Shown: one piece after another, positions 23,924 through 51,657 of the stretch | Layout: every line of letters starts with the position of its first letter | How positions within the stretch are numbered: the stretch's first letter is position 1 | DNA from: Pseudomonas yamanorum | GTDB taxonomy: Bacteria; Pseudomonadota; Gammaproteobacteria; Pseudomonadales; Pseudomonadaceae | Reading direction: 5' to 3' | Length of the DNA: 64,000 nt | Assembly (NCBI RefSeq): GCF_900105735.1 | Contig: NZ_LT629793.1 | Span: forward strand, 2,046,001 to 2,110,000 | Translations under genes and position numbers: made by a program | The notes under the pieces: generated by a model | Seen by the model: only the letters and a program-made list of their open reading frames with translations | Databases searched by the model: none | Told to the model about the DNA's origin: nothing

Positions 23924-24308
23924 GATAGTTCCTTAATAAGTCGGGTTTGGCCTCCACGTATCCCAATGACCAACCAGTGGCATTCGCCTCCGGCACCCAG
24001 GTCATCGTGTCGACACGTGTGTGGATTTAAGCTTTGCGGGGTATCCCCGGAAAGCGGCGCATTTTATACCACAGAGCTTGCAAAAACGAAACCCGCATTC
24101 ACATTTGCCGTCAGTCGCTTTTGCCTAAGCCTTTGAATAGAGCCAGAATGCCCCCACCCTTATAGACAGAAGCGATCGCCAGACGCTCATGGTTTCACCC
24201 CTGCGTCTGCTAGAATCGCGTTTTTTGGGCTTGTGCGAATTCTGCAACCTTTTGTCGCACACCCGTAAACCGTATTGATTTCAGCGCGTCGCGCTAGAGA
24301 GAGCCTGT
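23924..24308. promoter_or_regulatory. Divergent rpsB/map control region
   Basis: This 385-base stretch has no gene. For rpsB (minus strand) a -10 TATAAA lies at 24063-24068, followed by the GC-rich start typical of ribosomal promoters (ATGCGCCGC); the -35 is weak. The leader between it and the ATG contains a CCGGGGATACCCCG-like stem (near 24037-24052). For map (plus strand) a -10 TAGAAT lies at 24211-24216. Both calls are by eye. Confidence 0.55.
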
Positions 24309-49413: not shown

Positions 49414-49424
49414 ATAAAGTGAAA

Positions 49425-50063
49425 ATGTCCGACAATCCTGTAAACACCAATAGCCCCGGGCGTCCCAAGGACATGGCAAAACGCCAGGCGATCCTCGATG
49501 CGGCGAAGATCCTGTTTTTGAGTAATGGGTATGCCAGTACCAGCATGGATGCGGTGGCGGTGGAGGCCGGGGTGTCGAAGCTGACGGTGTACAGCCATTT
49601 CACCGACAAGGAGACGCTGTTCTCGGCGGCGGTGGTCGCCAAGTGCGAAGAGCAGTTACCGGTGATGTATTTCGAGCTGCCCGAAGGTATGCCGGTGGAG
49701 AAGGTGCTGCTTAATATCGCGCGCGGGTTTCATGTGCTGATCAACAGCGAGGAGTCGGTGAACCTGCATCGGTTGATGATGACTTCCGGGAGTCAGGATC
49801 CGAAGTTGTCGCAGATCTTTTTCGAAGCCGGGCCGATGCGTATGTTGCAGGGGATGGAGCGGCTGCTCTGTAAGATCGACCAGAGTGGCGCATTGCGTAT
49901 TGCTAAGCCGTTCACCGCGGCGGAGCATTTTTTTTGCTTGCTCAAGGGGACGGCGAATTTTTGTTTGCTGTATGGATGCGGGGGGCAACTGAGCGCTGAG
50001 GCAGCCGAGGAGCATGTGCAGGAGGTTGTGGGGTTGTTTATGCGGGCTTATCGGGCTTTTTGA
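49425..50063 (+). CDS. mexL: TetR-family repressor, MexL type
   Basis: Predicted repressor of the mexJK operon and of itself. From the ATG at 49425 (a GTG two codons earlier is also open) it has 212 residues, the same length as PAO1 MexL as I recall it. The N-terminal helix-turn-helix is ILDAAKILFLSNGYASTSMD followed by AGVSKLTVYSHFTDKETLF. The C-terminal ligand-binding part is helical. It is transcribed away from mexJ and its stop is 2 bases from the inverted-repeat element that follows. The codon bias is normal. Confidence 0.82.
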   Translation: MSDNPVNTNSPGRPKDMAKRQAILDAAKILFLSNGYASTSMDAVAVEAGVSKLTVYSHFTDKETLFSAAVVAKCEEQLPVMYFELPEGMPVEKVLLNIARGFHVLINSEESVNLHRLMMTSGSQDPKLSQIFFEAGPMRMLQGMERLLCKIDQSGALRIAKPFTAAEHFFCLLKGTANFCLLYGCGGQLSAEAAEEHVQEVVGLFMRAYRAF

Positions 50064-50065
50064 AC

Positions 50066-50870
50066 TGAGTACATATCCGTTATTTAGGTAACGGCCACTT
50101 AGGGTTCCGCTCTTACAGCGGCTCACTTTTGAAAAGCGCAAAAGTAAGCAAAACGCTCTTGCCCCACCACTCGGCACCTCGCTAATGCTCGGTGTGCCCG
50201 CACTCCGGCTTTGGACCGTGGGCCGCCGTCATGGGCCATCCCTGGCCCAGGACGGCTAACCTGGCGTCCTGCCAGGTTACCCACGCTCCAAAGCCTGCGT
50301 TCGGCCAGCGTGGTTTAACGGGGCGCCTAAGATCAAAATCAAAAGCAAGAGCACAGCGGCCTCCCGGCCGGCTTGAGTGTTGAAGAGCAAAATCAAAAGC
50401 CAAAGCCGGCACGGTCAAGTGTGGGAGCTGGCTTGCCTGCGAGAGCATCAACTGGGTGTACCTGATACACCGAGGTGTCTGCATCGCAGGCAAGCCAGCT
50501 CCCACAGAAAAGCAGAGCCACCCCGCCCGTAGCAGCTGTCGAGCGCCAGCGAGGCTGCGTGCTTTTGATCTGCTTTTGATCTTGATCTGCGGGCCCCGTC
50601 AACCACGATGGCCGCAAGTAGGCACGGTGGAGCGGGTAAATCGGCAGGGATGCCGATTTAGCCGCGCCGGGCCATGGATGGCCCGTCGCGGCGGCCCGCG
50701 GAGCCGTGCCGGAGTGCGGGCATGCCGAGCCTAAGCGAGGCACCGAGTGGTGGGGCAAAGACCTTTTGGTTACTTTTGGCTGGGCCGGCATTCCGGGCGT
50801 TTGCCAAAAGTGACCCGCTGTAAGAGCGGAACCATAAGTGGCCGTTACCTAAATAACGGATATGTACTCA
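50066..50870. repeat. 805-bp inverted-repeat element with multi-hairpin arms
   Basis: The outer 36 bases at 50066-50101 and 50835-50870 are exact inverse copies. Each arm, read inward, continues as a homologous but diverged copy for about 280-310 bases (left to about 50345, right from about 50558). Both arms contain the same ordered hairpins: CCGTTA/TAACGG, CCGCT/AGCGG, then a GGGCCA/TGGCCC stem followed at once by a 9-bp stem. Between the arms lies a REP pair. No transposase or convincing gene is present. It fills the whole interval between mexL and rsmJ. Confidence 0.85.
50420..50506. repeat. REP pair (REPIN) nested in the centre of the inverted-repeat element
   Basis: GTGGGAGCTGGCTTGCCTGC and its inverse ending GCAGGCAAGCCAGCTCCCAC enclose a TGTACCTGATACACC-type inner hairpin. 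It is the same subtype as the copies at 40539 and 63427. Confidence 0.87.
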
Positions 50871-50874
50871 ACCC

Positions 50875-51657
50875 TCATGACTTCAGCGCCTTCTTCGGAT
50901 AAATATCATACCGACTGGACTTCCCATCCAACGCATGACTCGGCTTCACCCCCTCAATGCAAGGCGCCTTACGCGGCCGCTTAACCACCACACGATGACT
51001 GGCCAAAGCCAACGCCGCCGCCAACAACGCCGGAGCATCCGGATCATCCCCCACCAAGGGCCGAAACAACCGCATCTCCTTCTTCACCAACGCAGTCTTC
51101 TCCCGATGAGGAAACATCGGATCCAGATAAATCACCTGAGGCGGCTCCCCCTCCCAATTGCGCATCACCTCGATGGAGTTGCCCTTGAGCAACTTCATCC
51201 GCGCCACAATCGGCGCCACCTCAAAATCCTCGGCCCCGCGCGCCAGACCATCTTCCAGCAATGCCCCAATCAACGGCTGCCGCTCGATCAGGCTCATCTC
51301 GCACCCCAAACTGGCCAGTACGAAAGCATCCTTGCCCAACCCCGCCGTAGCATCCAACACCCGCGGCCGCACGCCCTGAGCTACGCCCACCGCCTTGGCA
51401 ATCATCTGCCCGCTGCCACCACCGTACAAACGCCGGTGCGCCGCACCACCCTCCACAAAATCCACCCGCACCGGCCCAGGCGCATCAGGTCCCAGCTGTT
51501 GTAACTGCAGGCCCTGCTCCCCCACCTGCAAGGCAAAGTCCGCCTCATCCAGCTGCAAAGGCAACCCAAGCTGCTCGGCCCAGTGCTGGGCGCGGGCCTG
51601 AAAACCTTCGGCCAAGGCCTCGACCCGAATGCGGCTGGCCGCTGGTTGTTCGCTCAT
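50875..51657 (-). CDS. rsmJ: 16S rRNA (guanine-N2)-methyltransferase RsmJ
   Basis: Methylates N2 of G1516 (E. coli numbering) in 16S rRNA. The 260 residues include RVRFVE-type N-terminal sequence ([20 protein letters not shown]), the SAM motif [20 protein letters not shown], the acidic segment [16 protein letters not shown], and the catalytic-type [22 protein letters not shown]-terminal [20 protein letters not shown] stretch is conserved in the family. The stop codon is 4 bases from the right end of the inverted-repeat element. Confidence 0.94.

Follow-up and report, generated by a model that had tools for sequence, protein, structure and literature searches.

What kind of sequence fills the gap between two convergent genes of Pseudomonas yamanorum that the initial annotation named mexL and rsmJ? 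The gap lies in a 64,000-nucleotide stretch of DNA, referred to here as the window, and is occupied almost entirely by an inverted-repeat element of 805 bases: the upstream open reading frame (49419-50063, plus strand) stops 2 bases short of it, and the convergent one (50875-51657, minus strand) ends 4 bases from it. The element could be a mobile DNA, a pair of structured RNAs, a device serving the adjacent genes, an oversized repetitive extragenic sequence, or the remnant of a gene. These possibilities are considered below, each next to the evidence that bears on it.

Layout of the element

The boundaries given in the initial annotation, 50066-50870, are exact; the element starts with TGAGTACATATCC and finishes with GGATATGTACTCA. 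The terminal 36 bases are identical in the inverted sense at both ends and the first mismatch falls at base 37, just as had been described. The arms are related beyond these ends, which also bears out the first description: left and right arms can be aligned over ∼280 bases, the right arm carrying an insert of 19 bases, and the ungapped inverted stretches comprise 74 nt (93%) and 131 nt (79%). The G+C contents of the two arms are 57.5 and 62.9%. The features recognized in the element are as follows.

50066-50345, minus strand: left arm, putative structured RNA read outward (inverted-repeat search, copies, folding, covariation)
50591-50870, plus strand: right arm, putative structured RNA read outward (inverted-repeat search, copies, folding, covariation)
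50066-50101, no strand: exact 36-bp terminal inverted repeat, left copy (sequence)
50835-50870, no strand: exact 36-bp terminal inverted repeat, right copy (sequence)
50346-50590, no strand: spacer between the arms (TTTTGATC-type tracts at both inner boundaries)
50420-50506, no strand: REPIN-like inverted repeat within the spacer (41-nt arms, 80%, 5 nt apart)
50200-50302, minus strand: TwoAYGGAY (RF01731) match in the left arm (46.0 bits, model positions 1-168)
50634-50697, plus strand: TwoAYGGAY (RF01731) match in the right arm (48.5 bits, model positions 46-112 only)
50260-50276, minus strand: left arm, first GGA hairpin (sequence; GGA in the corresponding loop of 68 of 70 arms)
50233-50248, minus strand: left arm, second GGA hairpin (sequence; GGA in the corresponding loop of 68 of 70 arms)
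50640-50657, plus strand: right arm, first GGA hairpin (sequence; loop conservation)
50669-50684, plus strand: right arm, second GGA hairpin (sequence; loop conservation)

The spacer contains a separate REPIN-like repeat that was absent from the initial account and that presumably belongs to the REP type common in pseudomonads. In two elements of another Pseudomonas genome, G059 (L276 and L282), the spacer has grown into a tandem REPIN array, with about five and about seven units, respectively. The whole element had been likened to a REPIN several times the usual size. The likeness holds for the layout of two inverted units plus a spacer and not for the identity of the parts, as the arms are not REP sequences. 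A giant REPIN, with arms that are enlarged REPs mobilized by RAYT, would agree with that layout and with the nesting of REPINs, even in arrays, in the spacer. However, the arms form a multihelix structure of ∼280 nt with RF01731 cores, and the REP-like sequence sits in the spacer rather than at the ends, which makes this explanation very improbable.

Copies in the P. yamanorum genome

The genome that includes the window (G000) is a single contig of 7,087,425 bp. Searches of this genome returned at least 40 near-full matches to the left arm plus one short match, 40 matches to the right arm (some of them partial) plus two short ones, 109 matches to the end pattern versus none for its reversed control, and 130 matches to RF01731, which had no match in any of 14 control genomes. 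From the lists of arm, end-pattern, and RF01731 matches, 72 regions were fetched. In 65 of them, each side has an inverted arm of 100 nt or more, and a full second arm is missing in L063, L071, L107, L110, L115, L118, and L132. The spacer REPIN is retained over at least 80 of its 87 nt in 66 regions. A length of 780 to 870 bp was measured for 45 regions. In 21 longer ones, inserts interrupt the arms at three positions, and the translated inserts read as insertion sequences. The element is thus clearly one copy of a dispersed two-armed Pseudomonas repeat. All 109 end-pattern matches fall within the 72 regions, so that, at this sensitivity, G000 carries no longer element with the same ends elsewhere.

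These regions also dispose of the decayed gene, the outcome that would have told against the initial description. Short open frames do exist in the element, but 72 regions, RNA covariation (see below), and alignment gap runs that are mostly not multiples of three (536 and 158 versus 139) leave a unique decayed gene with next to no probability. The same gap runs argue against protein-coding arms and agree with the earlier statement that the element has no gene of its own.

Distribution in Pseudomonas and beyond

Similar sequences had been expected to be common in fluorescent Pseudomonas, and a match to the left arm was indeed detected in 44 of the 59 Pseudomonas genomes sampled, the P. yamanorum genome included. 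Whether the arms occur singly or in pairs, a check proposed with the initial annotation, has a consistent answer in G000, with its 65 two-armed regions, and in other Pseudomonas genomes, where 33 of 40 regions, hand-picked from the match lists and some of them chosen for neighboring matches rather than at random, are inverted pairs. Five of these 40 regions have a single arm (L247, L262, L269, L271, and L272) and two have direct pairs (L256 and L267). A diverged copy resides on the P. antarctica plasmid pP27494_1, and three phage records contain partial matches.

Outside Pseudomonas, RF01731 matches at an E value of 1e-3 were found in 17 of the 273 other gammaproteobacterial genomes drawn. Among 20 hand-picked regions from such genomes, six, from two genera, contain outward pairs within 400 bp (L316, L317, L318, L321, L328, and L331), two contain wide outward pairs (L314 and L315), one contains an inward-facing pair (L322), and 11 contain one match. 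The ends in genome G205 retain a recognizable ..TACAGCGAGTnACTTTTTG..CAAAAAGTCACCAAAA.. hairpin that resembles the Pseudomonas ends. As far as the searches show, the pairing of divergent arms around a REPIN appears to be new within the literature searched, as do the divergent pairs in two gammaproteobacterial genera besides Pseudomonas. The earlier suggestion that the element has no formal description can be retained for its architecture, as no published account of a two-armed arrangement was recognized in the literature searches (search listings, with some papers in part only), and not for the core of the arm, which already bears the Rfam name TwoAYGGAY.

The arms as structured RNA

Both window arms exceed the RF01731 gathering score of 43, with 48.5 bits for the right arm and 46.0 bits for the left, and scores reach 65.4 bits in genome G017. 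The left arm covers model positions 1-168 and the right arm positions 46-112, with the outer part of the relatives aligned with large gaps. Elsewhere in the window, a t44 sRNA match of 73.4 bits is located at 23945-24041 on the minus strand.

Both arms carry the same ordered series of hairpins, as had been claimed, and, read outward, each folds at z = -6.05, with none of 200 shuffled sequences as stable. For comparative analysis, 185 partly redundant arms, 111 of them from one genome, were reduced to a less redundant set of 70, to which G000 contributed 10 and other genomes 60. RNAalifold predictions for the two strands had 51 pairs in common, on which wobble cells numbered 40 in the outward sense (in 16 pairs) versus 3 in the inward sense. 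When the pairs of the two folds were pooled (70 pairs), wobble cells were nearly as frequent in one sense as in the other, 179 outward versus 157 inward, because each fold picks the pairs that suit its own strand; the strand argument therefore rests on the common pairs. A formal covariation test used 54 outward arms, made up of both window arms plus 52 from the set of 70; the other 18, several of them shorter or more diverged, were excluded. In the resulting structure, 98.3% of the cells are paired, 34 of the 73 pairs have changed on both sides, and covariation is 0.271 versus 0.098 in shuffled alignments, none of 500 of which reached any of the measures; these numbers are inflated, as the alignment tested also served to derive the structure and the copies are related and not independent. 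Slid control structures had only 34 to 44% of their cells paired. At columns 211-254, the outward strand has a U-G pair that is UG in 49 of the 54 arms, including both window arms.

In many arms, CCUUUUGG directly precedes the GGUUACUUUUGG/CCAAAAGUGACC hairpin on the outward strand (A1 columns 201-256), and a similar arrangement is seen in G205. Judging by sequence, this tract could permit pairing in a different register or the formation of a U-rich triple helix.

Taken together, there is strong evidence for selection on the arms to fold as single strands in the direction from the center outward, with the folding evidence by itself fitting either RNA or single-stranded DNA. The proposal of a structured-RNA repeat family, one of two made initially, is well supported by the RF01731 matches, the wobble pairs on the outward strand, the covariation, and the GGA loops described next.

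GGA loops and CsrA/RsmA proteins

GGA is found in the first loop of 68 of the 70 arms, in the second loop of 68, and in both loops of 67. The motif CANGGANG occurs 240 times in the outward sense versus once in the inward sense in the 185 partly redundant arms. GGA in a hairpin loop is the signature of CsrA/RsmA binding sites. Binding of TwoAYGGAY to CsrA was proposed in a 2014 study (PMC4333381), reportedly by Gardner and Eldai, which in its accessible part also calls for validation. CsrA-family genes are encoded in all 18 TwoAYGGAY-positive genomes, with three in G000, and also in 17 of 20 TwoAYGGAY-negative genomes (20 of the 256 negatives), so that this co-occurrence says little. A crude scan of the element for sigma-70-like promoters found none. 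There is moderate support, from sequence, for the arms as candidate binding partners of CsrA/RsmA proteins. If the prediction is correct, ∼70 copies with two GGA hairpins per arm would bring up to ∼280 such hairpins to a genome, an estimate and not an individual count, and CsrA/RsmA-type hairpins would have a place in the repeat of 44 of the 59 sampled Pseudomonas genomes.

Empty sites, rearrangements, and mobility

For empty sites and REARRANGEMENT, 80 named loci of the rsmJ neighborhood were compared. In 73 of them mexL adjoins rsmJ, and 72 of these 73 have no arm, the exception being P. orientalis (L221); some of the seven loci that lack mexL are short contigs, and strongly diverged arms could have escaped detection. 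Arms near rsmJ were seen in three of the 80 loci (L163, L221, and L232). The single arm of L221 has an internally inverted core. In L163, from P. yamanorum IPO3780, first among the loci listed and with an RsmJ at 98%, a right arm is at the site and runs off the end of the contig.

In K2I15 (L164) and G095 (L135), rsmJ is joined to sequence that in G000 flanks another element, L091, at 4.761 Mb (∼92 to 93%), and the G095 junction holds a remnant of ∼80 bp with both element ends. In G059 (L136), rsmJ is joined to a flank of L094 (93%). The junction of rsmJ with the L091 flank is likely a rearrangement breakpoint and, as far as the searches show, is new. In G000, where dnaA is located at 3.416 Mb, the distance to the origin is 1.32 Mb for the window element and 1.34 Mb for the L091 site, and the two sites are on opposite replichores; judging by these similar distances, the event would have been an inversion between two copies, symmetric about the origin. 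Rearrangements of P. fluorescens genomes have been ascribed to intergenic MITE-like repeats in the accessible part of the report by Silby et al. (PMC2718517), and the present repeat offers a concrete substrate for them.

The flanks of six of the ten G059 elements match an element site of G000 (L273, L274, L277, L279, L280, and L281, with L274 matching on one side over only 66 bp), and those of L275, L276, L278, and L282 do not. Many sites are therefore old, and recent movement is not evident. Direct repeats of 2 to 9 nt at offsets of 0 to 19 were in no excess over shuffled flanks in 64 copies, which gives no sign of a target-site duplication. In the same 64 copies, both flanks are G/T rich reading inward; counted from ATATCC, position -6 is G on either side of every copy, and position -4 is G in 63 copies on one side and in all 64 on the other. 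The other initial proposal, a non-autonomous mobile element, is favored by the empty sites, the 72 dispersed regions, and the plasmid copy, and it lacks a target-site duplication, a transposase with the same ends, and a recent move among the findings. The element would have spread by transposition.

Insertion sequences within the repeat

An insertion sequence of ∼1.46 kb encoding a DDE transposase (PF01609) has 10 full-length matches in G000, all of them inside this repeat (L063, L066, L068, L071, L075, L090, L108, L116, L124, and L127). It breaks the arm at position 44/54, with arm coordinates overlapping by ∼11 nt, and is apparently specialized on the repeat. Arms of eight elements (L076, L077, L080, L100, L106, L111, L117, and L123) are broken at 134/136. 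The insert at this position in L076 belongs to the IS110 family (PF01548 and PF02371) and the same protein is encoded in L080 and L100, so the typing covers three of the eight. The P. antarctica plasmid copy (L283) is split at the matching position. Finally, breaks at 95/98 in L095, L100, L102, and L121 are each associated with the same 405-aa integrase-core (IS481-like) protein.

Orientation and genomic location

Copies were oriented by the better-scoring arm type on each side, with the terminus taken as opposite dnaA. The replication fork meets the right-type arm first in 61 of the 70 orientable copies among the 72 in G000; the corresponding P value of 1.3e-10 assumes independent copies, which these are not. 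Both arm types are clearly resolved in 37 copies, 34 of which obey this polarity rule. Genome G059 follows it in 31 of 40 copies among the matches listed. In G017, the polarity is reversed with respect to arm order in 12 of 15 hand-scored copies (3 unclear ones omitted), and the partner there is a third arm type; no clear arm order was seen in G052. Only 1 of 72 copies in G000 lies within 0.9 Mb of the origin versus 18.3 expected; the respective numbers for G059, among the matches listed, are 2 of 40 versus 10.2. Convergent-gene sites, as called by a simple home-made gene caller with genes reaching into an element dropped, account for 38 of the 72 copies; for comparison, 16 of the 209 pairs of adjacent genes in the flanks and 6 of the 53 pairs in the window were called convergent. 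The polarity rule is obeyed at 32 of the 38 sites called convergent, so that the direction of transcription alone is unlikely to cause the polarity. The replication-linked orientation, the scarcity near the origin, and an insertion sequence confined to the repeat all appear new within the literature searched, as far as the searches show.

The preference for convergent sites could mean that the copies are kept for a local function as boundary devices, acting in termination, against antisense transcription, or in replication-transcription conflicts. The fork polarity, the few copies near the origin, and the presence of 4 terminator-like sites versus 1.3 expected can be cited in favor of such a role. 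However, the same junction lacks the element in most relatives, 34 of the 72 copies were not called convergent, and termination leaves the GGA loops and the outward-strand folding unexplained, so this role is considered quite unlikely.

A somewhat better, albeit still improbable, alternative is an element that works solely at the DNA level, with hairpins that an HUH-type transposase (IS200/IS605 or RAYT-like), acting in trans, recognizes as single-stranded DNA during replication and with arms that never function as RNA. Lack of a target-site duplication, replication-linked orientation, hairpins beside both ends, the central REPIN, and the lack of a promoter-like site all count in its favor. 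On the other hand, on any one DNA strand the two arms would fold in opposite senses, one inward and one outward, whereas the outward-strand U-G pair of columns 211-254 is common to both arm types, and GGA in both loops of 67 of 70 arms would be unexpected for a mere DNA hairpin.

Proposed function and spread

The preferred reading, judged about as likely as not, is a non-autonomous, dispersed two-armed repeat that carries two predicted Rsm/Csr-type RNAs and is mobilized in trans without target-site duplication. Upon outward transcription, each arm would offer a paired docking site for a dimer of RsmA, RsmE, or CsrA, and the copies together might act as a distributed sink or as a stabilizing tail for Rsm/Csr-bound RNA. 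The repeat would spread with the help of a system acting in trans, without target-site duplication, and would be retained mainly between convergent genes. Its polarity could be kept by replication-coupled insertion or by inversions between a copy on one replichore and a copy on the other, after which the arm order relative to the fork is unchanged; one likely case of such an inversion is seen.

A bolder version, tentative and rather doubtful, is that a selfish or domesticated mobile repeat with divergent pairs of predicted Csr/Rsm-binding RNAs constitutes a genome-wide buffer for RsmA/RsmE, that its copy number tunes the lifestyle switch, and that the replication-oriented copies direct tolerated origin-symmetric inversions.

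Comparison with known systems

REPINs, which are said to have been described by Bertels and Rainey in 2011, similarly consist of two inverted units with a spacer and are intergenic, non-autonomous, and present in many copies. The arms described here, however, are ∼280 nt long and of another sequence, in contrast to the short REP, and a REPIN sits in their spacer. Published REPs of the P. fluorescens group (PMC3390384) were considered and, in the part of that source available, concern REP elements that differ from these arms; likewise, the motif of the intrastrand triplex repeats (PMC4666352, in part) is of the G/C-rich CCCTC type, a different sequence.

Similarly to MITEs, the element has terminal inverted repeats, no coding sequence of its own, and multiple dispersed copies, but it differs from them in the lack of a target-site duplication, in having no autonomous partner with the same ends found in G000, and in its long, conserved, RNA-like arms. 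Among the P. fluorescens intergenic repeats R0 to R200, the accessible part of Silby et al. 2009 (PMC2718517) lists R200 as a 320-bp repeat with 60.25% G+C and 47 copies in strain SBW25, and notes a bias of the larger repeat families to convergent genes. By description only, the size and G+C content of R200 are compatible with one arm of the present element; unlike the two-armed element, R200 is tabulated there without inverted-repeat structure.

The paired GGA hairpin loops of the arms resemble those of the RsmX/Y/Z and CsrB/C sRNAs, which are encoded by one or a few genes, whereas the arms, with predicted binding, come in tens of copies per genome within inverted repeats. The closest relative is the TwoAYGGAY RNA, which the accessible part of Weinberg et al. 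2010 (PMC2864571) presents as a probable RNA from the human gut, gammaproteobacteria, and Clostridiales. The arm core scores above the gathering score of this family and has its two hairpins with GGA-containing loops. Unlike TwoAYGGAY as published there, the copies described here are dispersed and organized in inverted pairs, and the right arm of the window matches only positions 46-112 of the model. An unexplained RNA motif thereby becomes the repeated arm of a dispersed element.
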